Source: Bulleidia sp. zg-1006
GTDB lineage: Bacteria; Bacillota_I; Bacilli_A; Erysipelotrichales; Erysipelotrichaceae
Length of the DNA: 64,000 nucleotides
Reading direction: 5' to 3'
Assembly (NCBI RefSeq): GCF_016812035.1
Contig: NZ_CP069178.1
Span: forward strand, 868,001 to 932,000
Numbering within the stretch: position 1 is the stretch's first letter; each line of letters opens with the position of its first letter. The position numbers were made by a program, and so were the translations under genes. Below are positions 23,465 through 34,384 of the stretch, in pieces. A model generated the notes under the pieces. That model was not told where the DNA came from. It did no database searches and saw only the letters and a list, made by a program, of their open reading frames with translations.

Positions 23465-24199
23465 CTATCTAGCTAATCCCATTCTCTTTAACATCACTTC
23501 TTTCGCTTTATTTTCCCATTCATCATCAAGGGATTTTAAAGCCATTGTCATTCCTTTTCTTGCCAAAGCTCTTTGTAATACAAAGTCTGCTACTTCTGGA
23601 TTTTTCGGTAATAAAGGACCATGTATATAGGTCGCAATCACTTGTTCATTCATAAAACCTTCCGAAGAACCTTTATATTCATTGCCATGACCACTTAATA
23701 CACGACCAAAAGGTGTTTCCACCTGTTTCGTTTGACCACCATGATTTTCAAAACCAAGCACTTGAACCACTTCTTTCCCCAAATTAACTTCAATCGCAAC
23801 ATCACCAATACAACGATGCCCACGATCACTAGCGACTGTATAATACGGAAAGAAGGACAAACCATTCACAACCTTTCCATCTTGATCCTTATAATATTGA
23901 CCAAATAGTTGGTATCCACCACAAATCAATAAAAATTGACAACCCTTATCCAATAAATGTTGAATCGCTTTTTTACGACTTAATAAATCTTGATAAATGA
24001 GATTTTGTTCCTTATCGGCACCACCACCCATAAAGAAAATATCCACATCCTCCATTTCCGCTTTTTGATTTAAAGAACAAGTCCTAACTTCCAAATCAAT
24101 ATTACGTTTGGCACAACGATACTTTAGAGTTTCAATATTTCCCTTATCACCATACAAATCCATCAAATCATGGTACATCCATAAAAGAACTAATTTCAT
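23465..24199 (-). CDS. gatD: Lipid II isoglutaminyl synthase, glutamine amidotransferase subunit
   Basis: Class I glutamine amidotransferase of 244 residues. The nucleophile Cys93 is in LLICGGYQLFG and the His in ATYIHGPLLP. It supplies ammonia to MurT for amidation of D-Glu in lipid II, a step of Gram-positive wall synthesis. The ATG at 24199 overlaps the murT stop (ATGA). An upstream in-frame start at 24274 would lie within murT. Confidence 0.93.
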   Translation of the reverse strand: MKLVLLWMYHDLMDLYGDKGNIETLKYRCAKRNIDLEVRTCSLNQKAEMEDVDIFFMGGGADKEQNLIYQDLLSRKKAIQHLLDKGCQFLLICGGYQLFGQYYKDQDGKVVNGLSFFPYYTVASDRGHRCIGDVAIEVNLGKEVVQVLGFENHGGQTKQVETPFGRVLSGHGNEYKGSSEGFMNEQVIATYIHGPLLPKNPEVADFVLQRALARKGMTMALKSLDDEWENKAKEVMLKRMGLAR

Positions 24200-25506
24200 T
24201 GACTTGCCTTCTTTCCAAGAATATGACGTGTCGCATGTAATGCGGTGTACGTTGAAAGCACGTAAGAAGGACAATGATCTTCATCCAAGAAATTTACTGC
24301 TTCCTCTACCTTCTCTTTAACCATCACTTTATCTTCCAAGCCTTCGTATTTCAAACGCAAAGCCATATCATAAGCCCTTAGCCCCGAAGTTACAACATGA
24401 CGTACATTGCCTTTTAATAAGCGTTCAAAGTGAGCATCCCAAATCCAAGAAACATCACAGCCATCTTGATCATTATCGTTTAAAATAATCAAAATATTCT
24501 TCTCCTTCTCATCACTTAGAATATACTTCAAAACCTCATTCGTACCAGTCGGATTTTTAATCAAATTGATCACACAAGGCTTGGATAACGCAAAAACTTC
24601 ATTCCTACCTTCCTTCATTTCAAAGCTTTGAAAAACTTTATTGGCACATTCAACATCTAACTTTAAATCCTGTATAACTGTTAAAACCGCCGCACAGTTA
24701 TAAATGGCATAGATTGTATTCATAAAGGAATAAAAGCTTCTTCCTAAAGCTTGAAAACGATGATTCTCATAGTCGATTGCACTCACATAGAAAGCTGGTT
24801 CAATCTGTCCAAAGTCATCCTTTTCACAATGGAAACGACCAATATGGGAATACTGATAATACTCATACACCAAACGATTGGAACAACGCGGGCAAAACTT
24901 ACCCTCACTGGCTTCATCACTTGTCTTTTGGGATATGGCATTTTCACCAACTGAAAAAAATTGAATCTTTGCTTGTTTAGCATTATCCGCCAAACGAACC
25001 ACATTCGGATCATCTCCATTTAAAATCAAAGTCCCTTTAAAATCCTTTGTGACTTCTTCAATACGACGAATGATTGTTTCCATTTCGCCGGCTCGATCCA
25101 ATTGATCACGGAAGAAATTATTCACCACCAAATGCGTTGGATGAAGATCCTTAAATTGACGATAAAGCGTTAATTCATCCACTTCAATCACACAAGCATC
25201 GGCTTGAATATGATAATGACCATCACTATTGACCGCTAATAAAGACGCAATACCAACATTCAAATTATCCCCTTTGCGATTATGAACAACTTTTAAGCCG
25301 GCTTGCCGTAAGCTTTCAGCTATTAAATTAGAAGTAGTGGTTTTTCCATTCGTACCAGTCACTAAAATCACAATTTCCGGCATTTGAAATTTTGAAATCA
25401 TTTTTTTATCGAACTTCAAACCCAAAGTTCCGGGAAAAGAACCGCCTCTTCCCATCTTCTTTAAAACCCTGGCAACCAATTGTGTTAAACGTAATGATAC
25501 CGACAT
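24196..25506 (-). CDS. murT: Lipid II isoglutaminyl synthase, MurT subunit
   Basis: Mur-ligase-type protein of about 436 residues. It has the ATP loop TGTNGKTTTSN, a zinc ribbon (CPRCSNRLVYEY then a further Cys in GRFHCEKDD) inserted in the central domain, and the DUF1727 C-terminal domain with NDNDQDGCDVSWIWD. It activates the D-Glu carboxylate for amidation with GatD ammonia. The start at 25506 follows AAAGGAG; an earlier start overlaps yhaM. It is coupled with gatD. Confidence 0.93.
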   Translation of the reverse strand: MSVSLRLTQLVARVLKKMGRGGSFPGTLGLKFDKKMISKFQMPEIVILVTGTNGKTTTSNLIAESLRQAGLKVVHNRKGDNLNVGIASLLAVNSDGHYHIQADACVIEVDELTLYRQFKDLHPTHLVVNNFFRDQLDRAGEMETIIRRIEEVTKDFKGTLILNGDDPNVVRLADNAKQAKIQFFSVGENAISQKTSDEASEGKFCPRCSNRLVYEYYQYSHIGRFHCEKDDFGQIEPAFYVSAIDYENHRFQALGRSFYSFMNTIYAIYNCAAVLTVIQDLKLDVECANKVFQSFEMKEGRNEVFALSKPCVINLIKNPTGTNEVLKYILSDEKEKNILIILNDNDQDGCDVSWIWDAHFERLLKGNVRHVVTSGLRAYDMALRLKYEGLEDKVMVKEKVEEAVNFLDEDHCPSYVLSTYTALHATRHILGKKASQ

Positions 25507-25507
25507 C

Positions 25508-26443
25508 CTATTTCTCCTTTGGTTTATAGAACTGGCGATTTTCCATTGAGAATAAACGACTTGTCCAAGAGCCTGGCTCAACTTCCTTTAAAGCAAGCTT
25601 CAATGTATTCAAATGAGCATCAATATTATCCACAAGAGAAAGAATTTCCGCTTCTTGAAGACAAGGTAATACTGGTGAACCATATTCTAAATGACCATGA
25701 TGGCTTAAAATCATGTGGTGCAATAAAATCGTTTCTTCCTCTTCTTCTAAGGATAATTCCTTTGCGACTTCGCTTAACCAACCATTCGCTAAAGAAATAT
25801 GACCTTCTAAGCGACCTTGTAAAGTATATTCCGTTGTGATTGGACCGGACATTTCTTCTGTCTTTCCCATATCATGAACTAAAGCCCCGCTAATCAATAA
25901 ATCTTTATTGAGTTGAGGATAAAGATCACATAGAGCCAAACAAGTCTTGACCATACTTAAACTATGTTCTGATAAACCACCCAAAAACGCATGATGAATT
26001 TTAGAGGCGGCCGGATAATCAAAATACCTCTGTCCCACCTTTTGAAACATCGCAATCACCAGCTTCTTTAAAACCGGTGAAGAAATCTGATCAATGTAAG
26101 ACCTTACCTCTTCTTTCCGCTTTTCTTCGGGAATAAGAGAAGATAACACAAAGTCTTCTACAACCACGTTTTCACCGGCTTTGCCAGCACTTAAAATACG
26201 ACCTTGCATTTGTCCTTTATAGTCCAAAACATCAAATGTAAATTGAATCAATCGACCATTTTGAATCAATTTAATATCTTCTTGACGAACATCCCACATT
26301 TTACCTTCTAAACTACCGGAACTATCCGCAAGTATCATCGACAAATAAGGCGCTCCTTTATTTGTCATTCCATTTTTAACATCTTTGACCAAAAGTGGTA
26401 ATTGGTATCTTTCACCAACCACATATTCACTAATCTTAGGCAT
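25508..26443 (-). CDS. yhaM: 3'-5' exoribonuclease YhaM
   Basis: Protein of about 311 residues with an N-terminal OB domain (DVKNGMTNKGAPYLSMILAD) and a C-terminal HD domain (HHAFLGGLSEHSLSMVKTCL, LVHDMGKTEEMSG with the metal-binding His-Asp). YhaM trims RNA from the 3' end in Bacillota. The third of three consecutive ATGs (26443) is best spaced from GGAGG. Its start overlaps the end of the upstream glycosyltransferase-RecX gene. Confidence 0.92.
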   Translation of the reverse strand: MPKISEYVVGERYQLPLLVKDVKNGMTNKGAPYLSMILADSSGSLEGKMWDVRQEDIKLIQNGRLIQFTFDVLDYKGQMQGRILSAGKAGENVVVEDFVLSSLIPEEKRKEEVRSYIDQISSPVLKKLVIAMFQKVGQRYFDYPAASKIHHAFLGGLSEHSLSMVKTCLALCDLYPQLNKDLLISGALVHDMGKTEEMSGPITTEYTLQGRLEGHISLANGWLSEVAKELSLEEEEETILLHHMILSHHGHLEYGSPVLPCLQEAEILSLVDNIDAHLNTLKLALKEVEPGSWTSRLFSMENRQFYKPKEK

Positions 26444-28424
26444 CATCATCCTCCATATCATTGATTACTGTATAAACATCTTCATAACTATAACCCTGAT
26501 TTAAGCAATAACGATAAATTCGATTGCGTAAATCCGTTCCTGAATATTTCCGTGCATAGCGTTTTTTAGCTTGATTAGCACATTTGCGTAAATAATCCAA
26601 CTCCTTTGCATCCACTTTACTAAAATCTAGTTGAACCATCACTCGATCAATTAAATCGTCATTATAACCTCTTTGACGAAGCTTTATACGAATGGTTTCT
26701 TTCGTTTTCTTTAAAGAATAAGAGGAAGAACGAAGGATTTTTCGGGCGTATTCCAACGCAAAATCTTCTTCTTGAACTGGTTCTTCTTGTAAAGCCTTTT
26801 GAATAAGATGTTCAGAAATTCCTTTTCTCGCTAAACGACGGCGAACCTCATTTTCACCAAATAATGATGAAAATAAAGAATGTATATGCTCTCGGGCATA
26901 GCGTTCATCATTTAAATAGCCCTTTTCTTTTAAACTACGAATAATCGCTTGCACACTATCTAAAGAACATTGGGTATTTTGAGTTAACCAATCCACAATT
27001 TCTTTTTGGCTTCGATCTTTAATAGCTATTTTTTTTAAACAAGCTTGATAAGCCGCTGTTTGCACTTCTTTTTCTTTAAGAACTTTATAAATATGGTGAT
27101 TAAAGAAACCATGCGCTCTTAAACCATATTCATAATAATCATCCACCGATACTTTCAAGCGCAATTCTTCCTGCTCACTAGATCTTAAGTACAACTCAAC
27201 AATCGTATCCTTGGTTCGCATTCGTAAGATTTCATATTGAATGCGATTGAAATCAATCACTCGACTATACACTTCTAAAATCTTTGTGTAGAAAGTTTCC
27301 GCACTAAATGGTTTTGTGACCGAAACACAGCGTTGACAATATCTTCCATATTCATGACCATCCATTTTTTCAAATTCTAAAATCGCATTAGCCAGACTTT
27401 CTTCATCTACAAAAAACCAGCCTGTTTCATTTGGCATTAACAAACCATCTAAGACCTCATCTTTTCTAGCAAACAATGGCAAACCGGAAGCCAAGGCTTC
27501 AATAAAAGTCATCCCTTGCGTTTCACTTAAAGAAGCGGACACAAAGGCGTTACTACTACGATATAAATCCGGTACAGTCTCACGAGGAATTGGTCCTGTT
27601 AAGATGACATCCTTTTCTAAGCCTTGTTTAGAAACTAGCTTTTTAAGACTATCGAAATCAGGTCCTCCACCAACAATCACCAGTTGACTCTTCGCTCCCT
27701 TTTTAAGGGCAACTTCATAGCCACTTATGACCAAGTCCAAAGCCTTTTCCTTGGCCAAACGACCAACATAAATAATAATGGAACGATTTTCCGCTAGACC
27801 ATATTTCTTTCTGGTTTCTAATCTTCTTTCTTCACTAAACTCTTTGGGATTAAAACGCTCTAAAGAAAGACCGGTGGGAATAACCGTCAGTCTTCTTTGA
27901 ATACCATAGTTTTCTAGCATTTCCTTGGTTTTTAAAGAAGGTGTAATGACTTCTTGCGAGCTTTCACCATATAGCCTTGATAGTTTAGCTACCGCCATCT
28001 TACCAACTTCATCAACTGTTTTTGAATTCAATAAATTCACATAGTGTGTGTAATCTTCATAGGTTGTATGATAGGTCGATACCAATGGAACACCTAGATG
28101 CTTAGCACAAATACGAGCAAAAATCCCCACCCCAAATTCAGTTTGGGCATGAATGATTTGTAAGTTTAACGAACGAATGACTTCCAAAGCCTCCGAATGA
28201 AAAGGCGAAGCCATCACATAACCATATAGAAATTTCAATTGAATACCACTAAGACGTAAAACATCCTGATCTTCATTCCATTCCATATCTTCTTTTCCTG
28301 TATAGGTGGTGATGACATAAACCTCATGTCCATGTCTTTTTAGTTCTTGAAAAAGGATATAGGTGGAATTCGCTACACCATTGATTTCTGGCACAAAGGT
28401 ATCGGAAAATAGACCAATTCGCAT
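26436..28424 (-). CDS. Fusion of a GT4 glycosyltransferase and RecX
   Basis: Protein of 662 residues. Residues 1 to about 390 are a GT-B/GT4 transferase (MRIGLFSDTFVPEINGVANS, YVGRLAKEKALD, SLSETQGMTFIEALASGLPL), closest in pattern to diacylglycerol glucosyltransferases. From about 393 the protein is a RecX: LYLRSSEQEELRLKVSVDDY then three-helix repeats with LKEKGYLNDERYAREHI, NEVRRRLARKGISEHLI and LRQRGYNDDLIDRVM. RecX normally binds RecA filaments and is a separate protein of 150-270 residues. No stop or ribosome-binding site separates the halves. It lies between a flippase-like gene and yhaM. Confidence 0.9.
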   Translation of the reverse strand: MRIGLFSDTFVPEINGVANSTYILFQELKRHGHEVYVITTYTGKEDMEWNEDQDVLRLSGIQLKFLYGYVMASPFHSEALEVIRSLNLQIIHAQTEFGVGIFARICAKHLGVPLVSTYHTTYEDYTHYVNLLNSKTVDEVGKMAVAKLSRLYGESSQEVITPSLKTKEMLENYGIQRRLTVIPTGLSLERFNPKEFSEERRLETRKKYGLAENRSIIIYVGRLAKEKALDLVISGYEVALKKGAKSQLVIVGGGPDFDSLKKLVSKQGLEKDVILTGPIPRETVPDLYRSSNAFVSASLSETQGMTFIEALASGLPLFARKDEVLDGLLMPNETGWFFVDEESLANAILEFEKMDGHEYGRYCQRCVSVTKPFSAETFYTKILEVYSRVIDFNRIQYEILRMRTKDTIVELYLRSSEQEELRLKVSVDDYYEYGLRAHGFFNHHIYKVLKEKEVQTAAYQACLKKIAIKDRSQKEIVDWLTQNTQCSLDSVQAIIRSLKEKGYLNDERYAREHIHSLFSSLFGENEVRRRLARKGISEHLIQKALQEEPVQEEDFALEYARKILRSSSYSLKKTKETIRIKLRQRGYNDDLIDRVMVQLDFSKVDAKELDYLRKCANQAKKRYARKYSGTDLRNRIYRYCLNQGYSYEDVYTVINDMEDDDA

Positions 28425-28437
28425 AAAAGGCTCCCTT

Positions 28438-29469
28438 CTATTCGTTTTTCATCTTGACAATAAGAAATACAATTGCCCCGATGATTAGAGTTAGATAAAA
28501 AGTCGATAAACGCCACAAAATCATAATTGATGTAGCTTGTGCAGATGTAAAAATCGTCGAAAACATCAAGACAAAAGTCGCTTCCGTTCCCCCACTACTG
28601 CCTGGCATTGGTAGAAACGCATTCACCATCGCCACAAAAGAACTTAGCGCCATCATATCCAATACATTCGATAGTGTAAAAGGAATATGCAAAGCCCAAG
28701 CACAAAGTACCGGTACAGAATAAATAATTAAGAAACGCAAAACATTAATGCTTACTAATTGGTATACCAATCGATGATTTTGATGAAGAATAGTAATTTC
28801 ATGAGCTAGGTTCTCTAATGTTTTATCCAAGCGACTTAATGAGGCATCCACATCTTTTACCATGTGTAATTTAGCCCCAATATAAATACCTTTAGTTGTA
28901 ATCCAAGTATAAAAACGCTTTGATTTAGCTAATAAAATCAAGAAAACAATTACCCCTGTCGCAACTAAAAAACCGCCTAAAACAATCGCAAAGAATGAGG
29001 AATAGGTACGATAAAAATAACCGAAACGTAACAATAATAAGACTAACACCACCGCAATCATCGTGGCTTGATAGGCAATAAAATCAAGCCATAAAACACC
29101 TACGGCACTTGAAACTGAGACACCTTGTTTACGAAAAATATAAAGCTGAGCCACTTGACCACCTGAGGCACCTGGGGTGATGTTGTTGAAAAGACCGGCA
29201 ACATAGGCATTCATAAGTCCTTCTTTAAAACGGTAGTTTTTATGACTAACTTGCACTTCTAAAGCTAAGCCTTTAGCCAATAATGCTTTTTCTAAAACAA
29301 GTAAGGCAACCAATAAAATCAAAATCCAAGGGTTCGCCGCTTTTAAATGATTAATGACGTCTTGATAATGATCTTTCATTGTCATAAAAAATACAAAGCC
29401 TGTCAGCGCAAAGACAAGAAAGATGTTGAATGCCGTATTTTTAAGTAGTCTTTTAAGAAATTTCAGCAT
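28438..29469 (-). CDS. Lysylphosphatidylglycerol synthase TM-region / flippase-like membrane protein (UPF0104)
   Basis: Polytopic membrane protein of 343 residues with the domain also found in MprF flippases (FKEGLMNAYVAGLFNNITPG, ASGGQVAQLYIFRKQGVS, LPMPGSSGGTEATFVLMF). No aminoacyl-transferase domain is attached. With the adjacent glycosyltransferase it may flip or handle glycolipids; that is inferred from position. The start lies 32 bases before a bidirectional-looking AT-rich gap and the downstream neighbour follows after 13 bases. Confidence 0.85.
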   Translation of the reverse strand: MLKFLKRLLKNTAFNIFLVFALTGFVFFMTMKDHYQDVINHLKAANPWILILLVALLVLEKALLAKGLALEVQVSHKNYRFKEGLMNAYVAGLFNNITPGASGGQVAQLYIFRKQGVSVSSAVGVLWLDFIAYQATMIAVVLVLLLLRFGYFYRTYSSFFAIVLGGFLVATGVIVFLILLAKSKRFYTWITTKGIYIGAKLHMVKDVDASLSRLDKTLENLAHEITILHQNHRLVYQLVSINVLRFLIIYSVPVLCAWALHIPFTLSNVLDMMALSSFVAMVNAFLPMPGSSGGTEATFVLMFSTIFTSAQATSIMILWRLSTFYLTLIIGAIVFLIVKMKNE

Positions 29470-29562
29470 GCAATTATTATACTATTCTTTCCTTCTTTTG
29501 AACATTTCAGTAATACTTCAAGCTTATCCTCTTCTGAAATAACTCTCTATTTGAAAATATGT

Positions 29563-29588
29563 AAAAAGCCTACTTTTGTAGGCTTTTT
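29563..29588. terminator. Terminator after the second glycosyltransferase gene
   Basis: AAAAAGCCTAC (29563-29573) and GTAGGCTTTTT (29578-29588) form an 11-bp stem with a TTTT loop; the arm overlaps the stop codon of the gene ending at 29587. The T-run suits the minus strand. Confidence 0.9.
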
Positions 29589-30591
29589 ACTGGTTCAACA
29601 CCTCTTCATACACAGCTTTTAATTGTTTACCAACCTCTTCAATGCGTCTTTCCTTAGCTACTAAATAACCTTGTTTAGAAAGATTAGGTAATTTCTTTTC
29701 AATAATCCCTTGTAACTTTTCAATGAATTCATCATTATTATTTGCTAAATACGCATTTTCACCATTCTTTAACCATGGATTATAACAAGCAATATCTCTT
29801 AAAAGAAGCGATTGTTTTGAAGCAAGTGCCTCTAATACCACAATCCCTTCGGTCTCTTCATAGCTTGGAAAGAAGAAACAATCGGCATCATGATAAGCGC
29901 CTTCAATCAAGGAGCCTTTCACATAACCGGGAAAAATACAATTGCTAGGTGCCTCTTGAATAGCTAAGGTAATTTCAGGTGGAATGATTAACTTTGAAAT
30001 ATCACCAAACCAAATGAATGTGTATTGCGGTAATTGTCTCGCAACTGCAATAAAATCCAAAATACCTTTTCGTTTGAATAATAAACCCACCCCCATAACA
30101 ACCTTTTGATTGGCTTGTAAATGGAAATAATCACGGTACAATTGAATTTTTTGCTCATCATAAGCGTAACGATTTAAATCAATCCCATTTGAAATCACAT
30201 AAATCTTTTGCCTTAAGCCATATCCCTCTAATAGTGATTTTGAATATGGTGTTGGCGTAATAATCGCATCGGCTTGTTTATACAAATCCACCAAACGAAT
30301 TTTCACAAAGGGAGCAATCACATTGGAAAAAGTGAAAGAATTACGGAAATCTTCCATTGTACTATGAGCATGATAAATCACTTTCTTACCCATTTTTTTA
30401 GCATGATGAATAATGGCATCGGAATTCATTCCCCATGTGTTGATATGCAAAATATCATAGTCTTCTGCCCAAGGATTCGTGGTATACTCCACTCCTTGAG
30501 AACTTAAGGCTTTCATTTGGTGCTGAAGTGCACGTCCTATTCCTGATTTTGCTAAGGCATCTTGACCTTCAAAATATAGTAAGACTTTCAT
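29587..30591 (-). CDS. GT4 family glycosyltransferase
   Basis: GT-B transferase of 334 residues: N-terminal YFEGQDALAKSGIGRALQHQ acceptor domain, VYHAHSTMEDFRN, then the donor domain (GVGLLFKRKGILDFIAVAR, FFFPSYEETEGIVVLEALAS with the EX7E-type glutamates). It resembles bacterial diacylglycerol alpha-glucosyltransferases, and with the GT-RecX gene nearby suggests two-step diglycosyl lipid synthesis; this is inference. It overlaps the V-ATPase subunit D gene by four bases, so it is probably read as part of that operon. Confidence 0.88.
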   Translation of the reverse strand: MKVLLYFEGQDALAKSGIGRALQHQMKALSSQGVEYTTNPWAEDYDILHINTWGMNSDAIIHHAKKMGKKVIYHAHSTMEDFRNSFTFSNVIAPFVKIRLVDLYKQADAIITPTPYSKSLLEGYGLRQKIYVISNGIDLNRYAYDEQKIQLYRDYFHLQANQKVVMGVGLLFKRKGILDFIAVARQLPQYTFIWFGDISKLIIPPEITLAIQEAPSNCIFPGYVKGSLIEGAYHDADCFFFPSYEETEGIVVLEALASKQSLLLRDIACYNPWLKNGENAYLANNNDEFIEKLQGIIEKKLPNLSKQGYLVAKERRIEEVGKQLKAVYEEVLNQ

Positions 30592-31211
30592 GAACGATGG
30601 TTTTCCTTTTGTGCTTTAATGACTTTTAAACGTGAGAATTCCTCTCTTTCTTTTTCTTCTAAAGCCGAAGAAATGTGTTGAATTTGTGAAGATAAACGAG
30701 GTAATACCACATTTTTTAAAGCGTTCGCTCTTTTTTGCGTTTGAGCAATCGCCGCAGCTAAATGATATACCGCATTATCCACTTCAGCCAAAGTATAACT
30801 CAATTCCTTAATCTTTTGAAATTGTAAATAAGCTTCATCAATACGGGAAGAAGTATTTAAAAGACCATAGGGAATTTCTAAATTTTTCTTTGGTGTATAT
30901 AGCACATTGGGAATTTCCACCCCCATCACGGAACGATAGGTCAATTCTACCTCATCCGCAATCGCTACCTGTTCTGCAATCGAACTGATGATTCCCGAAG
31001 ACATATTGGCTTGTTGTAAAAGATAATAACCTAGCTTATAAGCATCACTAATTTCCTCACGCAAGACTTTCACTTTCTCAACCAAAGCCATCATTTCTTT
31101 AATCAAAATATGACGTTTACGATCCATTAAATCATAACCATTTTTCGCTAAATCATACCTGCGTTTTAAACGAAGTAAGTTTCCCTTTGTTGTGGGCATT
31201 TGCACAGGCAT
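30588..31211 (-). CDS. ntpD: V-type ATPase subunit D (central stalk)
   Basis: Helical hairpin protein of 207 residues (MPTTKGNLLRLKRRYDLAKN at the start), the rotor shaft inside the A3B3 head. Long coiled-coil helices occupy both ends. Overlaps ntpB by one base and the glycosyltransferase by four. Confidence 0.94.
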   Translation of the reverse strand: MPVQMPTTKGNLLRLKRRYDLAKNGYDLMDRKRHILIKEMMALVEKVKVLREEISDAYKLGYYLLQQANMSSGIISSIAEQVAIADEVELTYRSVMGVEIPNVLYTPKKNLEIPYGLLNTSSRIDEAYLQFQKIKELSYTLAEVDNAVYHLAAAIAQTQKRANALKNVVLPRLSSQIQHISSALEEKEREEFSRLKVIKAQKENHRS

Positions 31212-32626
31212 TATATCGCTCCTTTTTTCGCTAAATCAATCACATTTTGCGCTCTTTGAGTATTGTAATATTCTTGAATGAAGGCATCGTCTAAACGATC
31301 TAATTCTTCCTTTGGTAGCGTAGATAATAAAGCCCAAGCTAAATCTAATGTTTCAATGATGGAACGATTGTCATCCTTTTGACCAATAAAGACCGCTTCC
31401 ACTTGACGAGCAAACTTCATGTATTGTCGGTCTTTTACTGACAATTCATCTTCACCAATAACGGAAGCTAGCGAACGTACTTCTTGCACTCGGGAATAAG
31501 AGGCAAATAATTGGTTGGCCACTGCCTGATGATCTTTACGCGTTAAACCCTCACCAATACCATCCTTCATCAAGCGGGATAAAGAGGAAAGAATGGCGAT
31601 TGGCGGTTGAATTCCATTCATAAATAAATCACGATCTAGGACAATCTGTCCTTCGGTGATATAACCGGTTAAATCTGGTACTGGATGAGTAATATCATCA
31701 TTTGGCATCGTTAAAATGGGAATTTGAGTAACTGAACCCTTACCGCCTTGAATAATGCCCGCTCTTTCATAAAGGGAAGCTAAATCTGAATATAAATAAC
31801 CCGGATATCCTTTGCGTGAAGGAATTTCTCCGGAAGTACTCGAAAATTCACGAATGGCTTCGCAATAAGCTGTCATATCCGTTAAAATAACCAATACATT
31901 GCGCTGTTGTTCAAAAGCTAAATATTCCGCAGCCGTTAAAGCAAGACGAGGGGTCATAATTCTTTCCAAAATTGGATCATCCGCTAAGTTTAAATACATA
32001 CAAACCTTTTCCATAACCCCTGTTTCTTTAAAGGATTTTTGGAAAATATCAGCAACGTCTTTCTTAACCCCCATAGCACCAAAAACAATGCAGAAGTTCT
32101 CCGCATCATCACCGGTTAAGTGTGCTTGACGAACAATTTGAATAGCCAATTGATCATGTGGTAAGCCGGAGCCGGAAAAAATCGGTAACTTTTGCCCACG
32201 AATTAAAGTATTCAAACCATCAATGGCGGAAATACCTGTATTAATGTAATTACGAGGGTATTGACGGGAAACAGGGTTTAAAGGTTTGCCATTCACATCC
32301 GCATATTTTTTCACAAAAACAGGACCTAAGTTATCTATTGGTTCGCCTAATCCATTAAAAACACGACCTAAAATTTCATTGGAAACACCTAACTCCATTG
32401 GATGCCCTAAGAACTTCGTTTTCGTATTGTTTTTAGCTAATTCATCCGTTCCTTCAAAGACTTGAACAATTGCTTTATCCCCTTGAATTTGAACCACCCG
32501 ACCCGAACGACAACGACCATCCTTAAGTTGGATTTGAACCATTTCTTCATTTCCTATATTTTCGCAATGGTCTAAGGCGACTAAGGAAGTTTGAATTTGT
32601 GATAAACCTAATTTTTGAATACTCAT
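31211..32626 (-). CDS. ntpB: V-type ATPase subunit B
   Basis: Non-catalytic nucleotide-binding-fold subunit of 471 residues (GQKLPIFSGSGLPHDQLAIQ replaces a functional P-loop; YPGYLYSDLASLYERAGII is the ATPase alpha/beta signature). Three copies alternate with subunit A in the head. Length is standard. Confidence 0.95.
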   Translation of the reverse strand: MSIQKLGLSQIQTSLVALDHCENIGNEEMVQIQLKDGRCRSGRVVQIQGDKAIVQVFEGTDELAKNNTKTKFLGHPMELGVSNEILGRVFNGLGEPIDNLGPVFVKKYADVNGKPLNPVSRQYPRNYINTGISAIDGLNTLIRGQKLPIFSGSGLPHDQLAIQIVRQAHLTGDDAENFCIVFGAMGVKKDVADIFQKSFKETGVMEKVCMYLNLADDPILERIMTPRLALTAAEYLAFEQQRNVLVILTDMTAYCEAIREFSSTSGEIPSRKGYPGYLYSDLASLYERAGIIQGGKGSVTQIPILTMPNDDITHPVPDLTGYITEGQIVLDRDLFMNGIQPPIAILSSLSRLMKDGIGEGLTRKDHQAVANQLFASYSRVQEVRSLASVIGEDELSVKDRQYMKFARQVEAVFIGQKDDNRSIIETLDLAWALLSTLPKEELDRLDDAFIQEYYNTQRAQNVIDLAKKGAI

Positions 32627-32635
32627 GATACCCTC

Positions 32636-34384
32636 CTATCGTATCGTCGCTAATTCAGCATCAATTTTTGTTTTTAATTCATCCAATAATTCTAATCGAT
32701 TATTAGGTACCGAATATTTCATTTTAATCACTTCTTCAAAAATGCCGGTTTTTAAAATTAAAGATACCGGAATATGTTTCTGAATCAATGGTAAACAAGC
32801 TTGTTTTAAATGGTGAATGACTTCTAACATTTTGACCTGCTTCGACATTGGAACATACGTATCTTCCTTATGGAAAGAGTTTTGTTGTAAATAACCAACC
32901 CGAATCACTCGTGCTATTTCCAAGTTTAGTTTTTGATCATCCGGTAAAACATCCGATCCAATCAAACGCACAATTTCCATTAAGCGTCCTTCTTCATGAA
33001 GGATTTCTTGAACTTCAGATCTTAAATCCCCAAAATTGCGAGATACTTGATGGTCATAATAAGCTGTCAATTCATTTAAATATTCCGAGTAAGAATCATT
33101 CCAATTCACAGCCGGATAATGACGAGCATAAGCCAAGTTCTTATCCAAAGCCCAGAAACAACGCACAAAGCGACGGGTATTTTGAGTAACTGGTTCTGAG
33201 AAATCAGCTCCTTGTGGGGAAACTGCTCCAATCAAAGAAAGCGAAGCTTTACATCCATTTAAAGTTTTAACCATCCCTGCTCTTTCATAGAATTGAGCAA
33301 TGCGACTTGGTAAATACGATGGAAAGCCTTCTTCAGCCGGCATTTCTTCCAAACGACCGGAAATTTCACGTAAAGCTTCTGCCCAACGCGAAGTACTATC
33401 TGCCATTAGAGCCACATGATAACCCATATCACGATAGTATTCTGCTATCGTTACGCCTGTATAAATTGAAGCTTCACGGGCTGCCACCGGCATATTGGAA
33501 GTATTTGCAATCAAGCAAGTACGATCCAATAAAGGACGATTGCTCTTAGGATCCACCAATTGAGCAAACTCTTCTAAAACTTGTGTCATCTCATTACCAC
33601 GTTCACCACAACCAACGTAAATAATAATATCAGCATCACACCACTTAGCAATTTGATGTTGTAACATGGTCTTACCAGCTCCAAAGCCGCCAGGAATAGC
33701 CGCGGCTCCACCCTTAGCCAAAGGAAATAAAGTGTCAATGACCCGTTGACCTGTAATCAAAGGAATTTGAATTCTTTCTCTTTTTTGAATAGGACGAGGA
33801 TTACGAATTGGCCACTTTTGCGCTAAAGTTAATGAAACCACTTCTTTATTTTTATCCAACTGAACATCGATGATTGAGTCTTTAACACTATACAAACCAT
33901 TTTCACTAATCCGAACAACCGTTCCACTCAAACCAATAGGAACTAAAGAGCGATGTTCAATCAAAGAAGTTTCAGGACATCCGGCGAATATATCCCCTTC
34001 TTGAACATGGTCTCCTACCTTTACATCCACATGAACATTCCATTTCTTATTTTCATCCAAAGAAGGAATAGGAGTAGTTGCCGCAATAAAAGGACCTTGT
34101 CGGTCTTGCATAGCCATTAAGGGTCGTTCAATACCATCAAAGATATTGCCTAAAATACCAGGACCTAAAGTCGCACTTAACAAACTACCTGTACCGATAA
34201 CTTCATCCCCTTGTTTTAAGCCAACTGTACTTTCATAGACTTGAATCATAGTTTTATTTTTATCAATGCGAATGACTTCACCTAATAAACCCTGCTTACC
34301 AACATGAACCACTTCTTTCATAGCAAAATCCTGTGTTTCTAGCACAGAAATAACCGAGCCATTGACGGAATAGATTTTTGCCAT
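32636..34384 (-). CDS. ntpA: V-type ATPase subunit A (catalytic)
   Basis: Catalytic subunit of 582 residues. It has the P-loop GGFGAGKTMLQ, GERGNEMTQVLEEF with the catalytic Glu, and SYLPSRIAQFYERAGMV. The characteristic non-homologous insert of V-type A subunits is present around residues 115-190. It hydrolyses ATP to drive ion pumping, or runs in reverse. Confidence 0.96.
   Translation of the reverse strand: MAKIYSVNGSVISVLETQDFAMKEVVHVGKQGLLGEVIRIDKNKTMIQVYESTVGLKQGDEVIGTGSLLSATLGPGILGNIFDGIERPLMAMQDRQGPFIAATTPIPSLDENKKWNVHVDVKVGDHVQEGDIFAGCPETSLIEHRSLVPIGLSGTVVRISENGLYSVKDSIIDVQLDKNKEVVSLTLAQKWPIRNPRPIQKRERIQIPLITGQRVIDTLFPLAKGGAAAIPGGFGAGKTMLQHQIAKWCDADIIIYVGCGERGNEMTQVLEEFAQLVDPKSNRPLLDRTCLIANTSNMPVAAREASIYTGVTIAEYYRDMGYHVALMADSTSRWAEALREISGRLEEMPAEEGFPSYLPSRIAQFYERAGMVKTLNGCKASLSLIGAVSPQGADFSEPVTQNTRRFVRCFWALDKNLAYARHYPAVNWNDSYSEYLNELTAYYDHQVSRNFGDLRSEVQEILHEEGRLMEIVRLIGSDVLPDDQKLNLEIARVIRVGYLQQNSFHKEDTYVPMSKQVKMLEVIHHLKQACLPLIQKHIPVSLILKTGIFEEVIKMKYSVPNNRLELLDELKTKIDAELATIR

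Follow-up and report, generated by a model that had tools for sequence, protein, structure and literature searches.

A glycosyltransferase–RecX fusion gene in Bulleidia and its distribution across the order Erysipelotrichales

In Bulleidia sp. zg-1006, and in most of the Erysipelotrichales genomes surveyed here, a GT4 glycosyltransferase (GT) and the RecA modulator RecX are encoded as a single polypeptide. This is probably a two-function protein whose halves each retain their usual role, the two having been joined by operon history. The gene lies in a 64,000-nucleotide stretch of the Bulleidia chromosome (contig NZ_CP069178.1, positions 868,001 to 932,000; the whole stretch is referred to here as the window), where it forms one frame running from ATG to stop with zero internal stops (Table 1). 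A preliminary description of this DNA had placed a 662-codon frame at exactly this position, without stating its strand, and had seen in it a complete GT4 transferase joined to a complete RecX. Both points are borne out, the Pfam matches comprising both GT4 domains and all three RecX repeats. The host genome is complete (1.55 Mb in one contig, 99.8% complete) and the same full-length frame recurs in relatives, most closely in Bulleidia extructa W1219 (82% identity) and from there down to 33% identity, so that the frame is neither a chance occurrence nor an assembly error. The assembly artefact against which the preliminary description had cautioned, like a frameshift artefact, is ruled out by these independent full-length copies.

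Table 1. The fusion gene, its parts and its neighbours in the window
Feature	Position	Strand	Basis
gatD-like, lipid II isoglutaminyl synthase subunit	23465..24274	-	Pfam, NCBIfam
murT-like, lipid II isoglutaminyl synthase subunit	24196..25581	-	Pfam, NCBIfam
yhaM-like 3'-5' exoribonuclease	25508..26461	-	frame overlaps 3' end of fusion gene
GT-RecX fusion gene, 662 codons + stop	26436..28424	-	frame, Pfam, NCBIfam, full-length relatives
RecX half, residues 395-662, N-terminal beta domain and three-helix repeats	26439..27242	-	Pfam, crystal-structure matches, model
GT4 half, residues 1-394, monoglucosyl-diacylglycerol synthase-like	27243..28424	-	Pfam, NCBIfam, model, ends of separate GTs
GT4 E-x7-E motif, E301 ... 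E309	27498..27524	-	invariant in 69 fused proteins
Flippase-like membrane protein (PF03706 / TIGR00374), upstream neighbour	28438..29469	-	Pfam, NCBIfam; order conserved
Terminator-like hairpin, 13 pairs, between bgsA-like and flippase genes	29561..29590	-	consensus match only
BgsA/IagA-family second glycolipid glucosyltransferase	29587..30591	-	NF053513, 497 bits, above 460 cut-off

The GT half has the features of a retaining GT4 glycosyltransferase, namely N- and C-terminal GT4 domains (PF13439, 94.7 bits; PF00534, 109.7 bits) and an E-x7-E motif, the catalytic pair of which (E301/E309) is invariant across 69 aligned fusions. In Foldseek searches a model of the whole protein matches the folds of the GT4 enzymes MshA, BshA and PimA. 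The best NCBIfam match, over residues 1–396, is to alpha-monoglucosyldiacylglycerol synthase (NF049988), the family of Acholeplasma laidlawii alMGS and Enterococcus faecalis BgsB. The E. faecalis pathway has two steps, BgsB producing monoglucosyl-diacylglycerol and BgsA then the diglucosyl form (PMC3083329), and it is because of this precedent, together with the family match and the presence of a BgsA-family gene in the same cluster, that the GT half is assigned a probable role in the glucosylation of diacylglycerol. The likeness to alMGS and BgsB also covers the E-x7-E motif and, in context, both the BgsA-family gene and the flippase-like gene; the fusion differs from these enzymes in scoring 241 bits, below the 400-bit equivalog cut-off, and in bearing RecX at the C-terminus of its GT.

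In the RecX half, the Pfam repeats PF21982, PF02631 and PF21981 all exceed their cut-offs of 26 bits (the three repeats score 49.3, 38.8 and 32.1 bits). The NCBIfam match (NF010733, residues 414–658) reaches 105 bits, under a cut-off of 240 bits that does not discriminate here because no genome in the order or class samples attained it, the stand-alone RecX proteins found elsewhere in the class likewise scoring below it. An AlphaFold model of this half alone (pLDDT 90.7) contains the repeat helices, and Foldseek comparison with the RecX crystal structures 3d5l, 3e3v, 3c1d and 3dfg gives TM scores by target length of 0.81–0.86 (0.82 for 3d5l); the profile match to 3e3v has an E value of 8.6e-28. 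Between the host and B. extructa, dN and dS are 0.130 and 1.17 for the RecX half and 0.094 and 1.67 for the GT half: dN is well below dS in each, and purifying selection acts on both. A decayed RecX half is ruled out by the dN/dS values, the fold and the repeat scores. Like Bacillota RecX (Bacillus subtilis RecX/YfhG, 264 aa; structures 3d5l and 3e3v), this half comprises a beta domain and three-helix repeats in ~265 aa, but it differs in being made as the C-terminal part of a protein that begins with a glycosyltransferase. In firmicutes recX is reported to lie systematically distant from recA (PMC1193525), and so too does the fusion gene, recA being ~500 kb away at G000:C1:395808. With RecA present in the genome, membership of the RecX family suggests that this half modulates the RecA filament. 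The fusion gene is the one RecX match in the host genome, and a search of the complete genome found no second, stand-alone recX, which settles for this genome the question of its absence raised in the preliminary description.

The order of transcription is BgsA/IagA-family glucosyltransferase, flippase-like protein, GT-RecX, then the yhaM-, murT- and gatD-like genes, and in almost all loci read from the order yhaM is directly downstream of recX. The terminator-like hairpin sits between the bgsA-like and flippase genes, and the fusion gene may belong to a separate unit consisting of flippase, GT-RecX, yhaM, murT and gatD. Family f2 of the order (loci L109–L111) differs from family f1 in that the BgsA-like gene follows yhaM downstream and has the opposite orientation. 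Next to the glycolipid cluster, and oriented as it is, the window has three genes (30588–34384) whose translations resemble, by eye, V/A-type ATPase subunits.

The survey of relatives that had been proposed for the fusion was carried out on 294 Erysipelotrichales genomes, of which at least 197, from each of the order's two families (f1 and f2), have a single frame across both halves (the figure is a count of listed rows, and a few of these frames are cut at contig ends or bear stops). Carriers include Bulleidia extructa, Lactimicrobium massiliense, Amedibacillus dolichus, Dielma fastidiosa, Breznakia pachnodae and Merdibacter massiliensis. Outwith the order, several hundred sampled genomes of the class and phylum yielded no fusion and no whole-protein match through both halves; the RecX frames listed there are of 168–344 residues and the GT frames of ~380–485. 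The suggestion that the fusion is a lineage marker is well supported by this distribution. Two genomes (G039 and G060) were left out, having no RecA, RecX or GT match at all despite high stated completeness; as RecA goes unmatched too, withheld or unreadable sequence is the probable cause, and not a genuine lack of GT and RecX. PF02631 alone is too weak for calling RecX absent, as it missed the RecX of G161, a full-length fusion carrier. No description of the fusion was found in a search of the open-access literature.

In three neighbouring families belonging to other orders (f8, f10 and f19), flippase, GT, recX and yhaM occur as separate overlapping frames in the same order. Among 16 loci fetched from these families around the GT, the GT, recX and yhaM genes are consecutive in all 16 and the flippase gene is present in 15; three further f8 loci found via recX (L142, L222 and L226) have the same cluster order. 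In a fourth f8 locus (L144) the GT position is occupied by a far weaker GT match, and three more (L223–L225) run flippase-recX-yhaM without a GT. No such four-gene cluster was seen in the loci read from other unfused families. These clusters resemble the fusion locus in having the same four genes in the same order with overlapping frames, and differ in that GT and recX are separate, the GT stopping at the fusion point or slightly beyond it: the f8 and f19 enzymes end exactly at the counterpart of residue 394 of the Bulleidia fusion, and the f10 enzymes extend some residues further. That the genes stand separately in this order, with GTs ending so close to the fusion point, indicates that overlapping neighbours merged, the end of the GT being joined to the start of RecX. 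As a side observation, recX and yhaM are neighbours of glycolipid genes in several families of the class (f8, f10, f19; for example L142, L286 and L289).

Of the 69 fused proteins, 62 have an ungapped junction; in the others it is only slightly shifted. In the AlphaFold model of the whole protein (pLDDT 88.2) the last GT helix, residues 375–394, ends at the fusion point and is directly succeeded by the first RecX strand, from residue 396, so that no linker is predicted between the halves; a pTM of 0.63 leaves their relative placing unsure. Because junction length is so constant, the fusion is more likely to have arisen by one event, in an ancestor of the Erysipelotrichales, than by two, although f10 groups beside f2 in a tree of RecX and YhaM (support 80, on a long branch), which makes two separate fusions possible.

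That tree, built from 100 loci, has 10 changes between the fused and unfused states within the order; an earlier tree with fewer exceptions had six. Both trees come from quick searches and contain many weak forks; moreover, change counts alone cannot tell gain from loss. The changes are read as losses because the junction is constant, because GT stubs remain in frame and because the exceptions are nested inside fused clades. GT and recX have been split in at least four places (L113–L116; L274/L277; L275; L278), the GT stop and recX start overlapping as ATGA in L115 and L116, and in about six clades the GT half has been lost and recX kept. Two of these losses have left a GT stub: at L119 (385 aa) and L120 (457 aa) the remains of the GT, short or degenerate, still read in frame into a RecX that is intact, and neither stub passes the Pfam thresholds for a GT domain. 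RecX is kept in nearly all splits and losses, G114 (L276) being the single candidate for the reverse. Genomes lacking the GT half have no close BgsA homologue, as is true of some fused genomes also. The exception is G133, which has a recX locus without a GT and, elsewhere, a GT of different architecture beside a BgsA-like gene; this second enzyme (L242:4280-6163) is a GT4 protein fused to a C-terminal VTT (DedA-like) membrane domain and has apparently replaced the lost GT half. Separate genes in close relatives, put forward in the preliminary description as evidence that would tell against the fusion, do exist in some relatives of the same genus, but as later splits nested in a fused clade.

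The split-off RecX of G127 (L278:3976-4596) has 207 aa and is without the N-terminal beta domain, whilst G073, of the same genus, is still fused. The stand-alone RecX of G220 (L122:4503-5792) has an N-terminal extension of ~190 residues in which a motif resembling 'IGAPISQSIGRIY' occurs three times in similar form; no Pfam family matches the extension.

Could the halves be made as separate products, RecX being freed by an internal start or by proteolytic cleavage near residue 395? Split species do make both halves from separate genes at the same operon position, but start codons preceded by a Shine-Dalgarno sequence are found between residues 380 and 460 in 27 of 69 genes, against a mean of 27.6 in synonymous shuffles, and the fused proteins have no conserved Met at the junction. 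An internal start is rejected for want of any excess over the shuffles; with cleavage also facing what the model predicts to be a structured helix-to-strand step rather than a disordered linker, separate products seem distinctly unlikely, and the protein probably stays in one piece. Far less credible is the idea that the RecX half has lost its action on RecA and now regulates the glycosyltransferase or provides it with a scaffold. Its divergence, as measured against the NF010733 cut-off, could be taken that way, but stand-alone RecX of the class falls under the same cut-off, RecX persists even where the GT has gone or only a stub of it is left, and the fusion carries the sole RecX of the host genome; we consider the idea barely tenable.

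The preliminary description had also suggested membrane tethering of RecX, or a coupling of DNA repair to the state of the envelope. In functional coupling of this kind a peripheral-membrane GT half would hold RecX at the membrane, or fix the amount of RecX to glycolipid synthesis, such that RecA activity follows envelope state or the reverse. The long retention of the fusion across the order, its structured and linker-free junction and a gene order conserved already before the fusion are all in keeping with such coupling. Against it, the fusion has been undone independently about ten times, with cases in which the entire GT has gone but RecX persists and others in which a stub remains without a catalytic GT. 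The behaviour of B. subtilis RecX also tells against it, that protein being dispersed during growth and, after damage, forming foci on the nucleoid and co-localising with RecA threads (PMC3527212). A membrane-bound fusion would need access to RecA from the face of the membrane, a difficulty for an intact fusion and for tethering alike. With the genes neighbours before they were fused and recX kept through the undoings, tethering and repair–envelope coupling find no positive support; no evidence requires either, and we regard the coupling as unlikely. The strongest version of the proposal, that cluster and fused form together represent an old link between glycolipids and RecA control, the GT holding RecX at the membrane in most Erysipelotrichales and RecX sensing or following glycolipid state, we think quite improbable.

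We return, then, to a two-function polypeptide. Judging from families and neighbours, the GT half would carry out the first step, glucosylation of diacylglycerol on the inner membrane face, a BgsA-like enzyme then adding the second glucose, whilst the RecX half would modulate the RecA filament. Comparison of the clusters shows that the gene arose from two neighbours with overlapping frames, GT and recX, within a flippase–GT–recX–yhaM cluster, most likely once, in the ancestor of the Erysipelotrichales, and the halves would since have been held together by co-expression and a lack of strong selection against the fusion, not by a common task. Some observations sit less easily with this. The fusion has outlasted strong sequence divergence across most of the order, perhaps because it confers an advantage under selection; the gene order flippase-GT-recX-yhaM, conserved in several families, might point to an older functional link; and both halves score under the curated equivalog cut-offs.

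The fusion is found order-wide, and the unfused cluster, the later splits and the in-frame relics are all visible in living genomes. Together they provide a clean natural experiment on the ‘Rosetta-stone’ premise that fused genes imply linked functions, and the evidence here is that mostly they do not: as the neighbours merged and later came apart many times, the join is a stable mark of lineage rather than evidence of wiring between repair and envelope. For annotation there is a warning, since the recX of fusion carriers is hidden in genes likely to be named glycosyltransferase, and anyone looking for a stand-alone recX would mistakenly conclude that the gene is absent.
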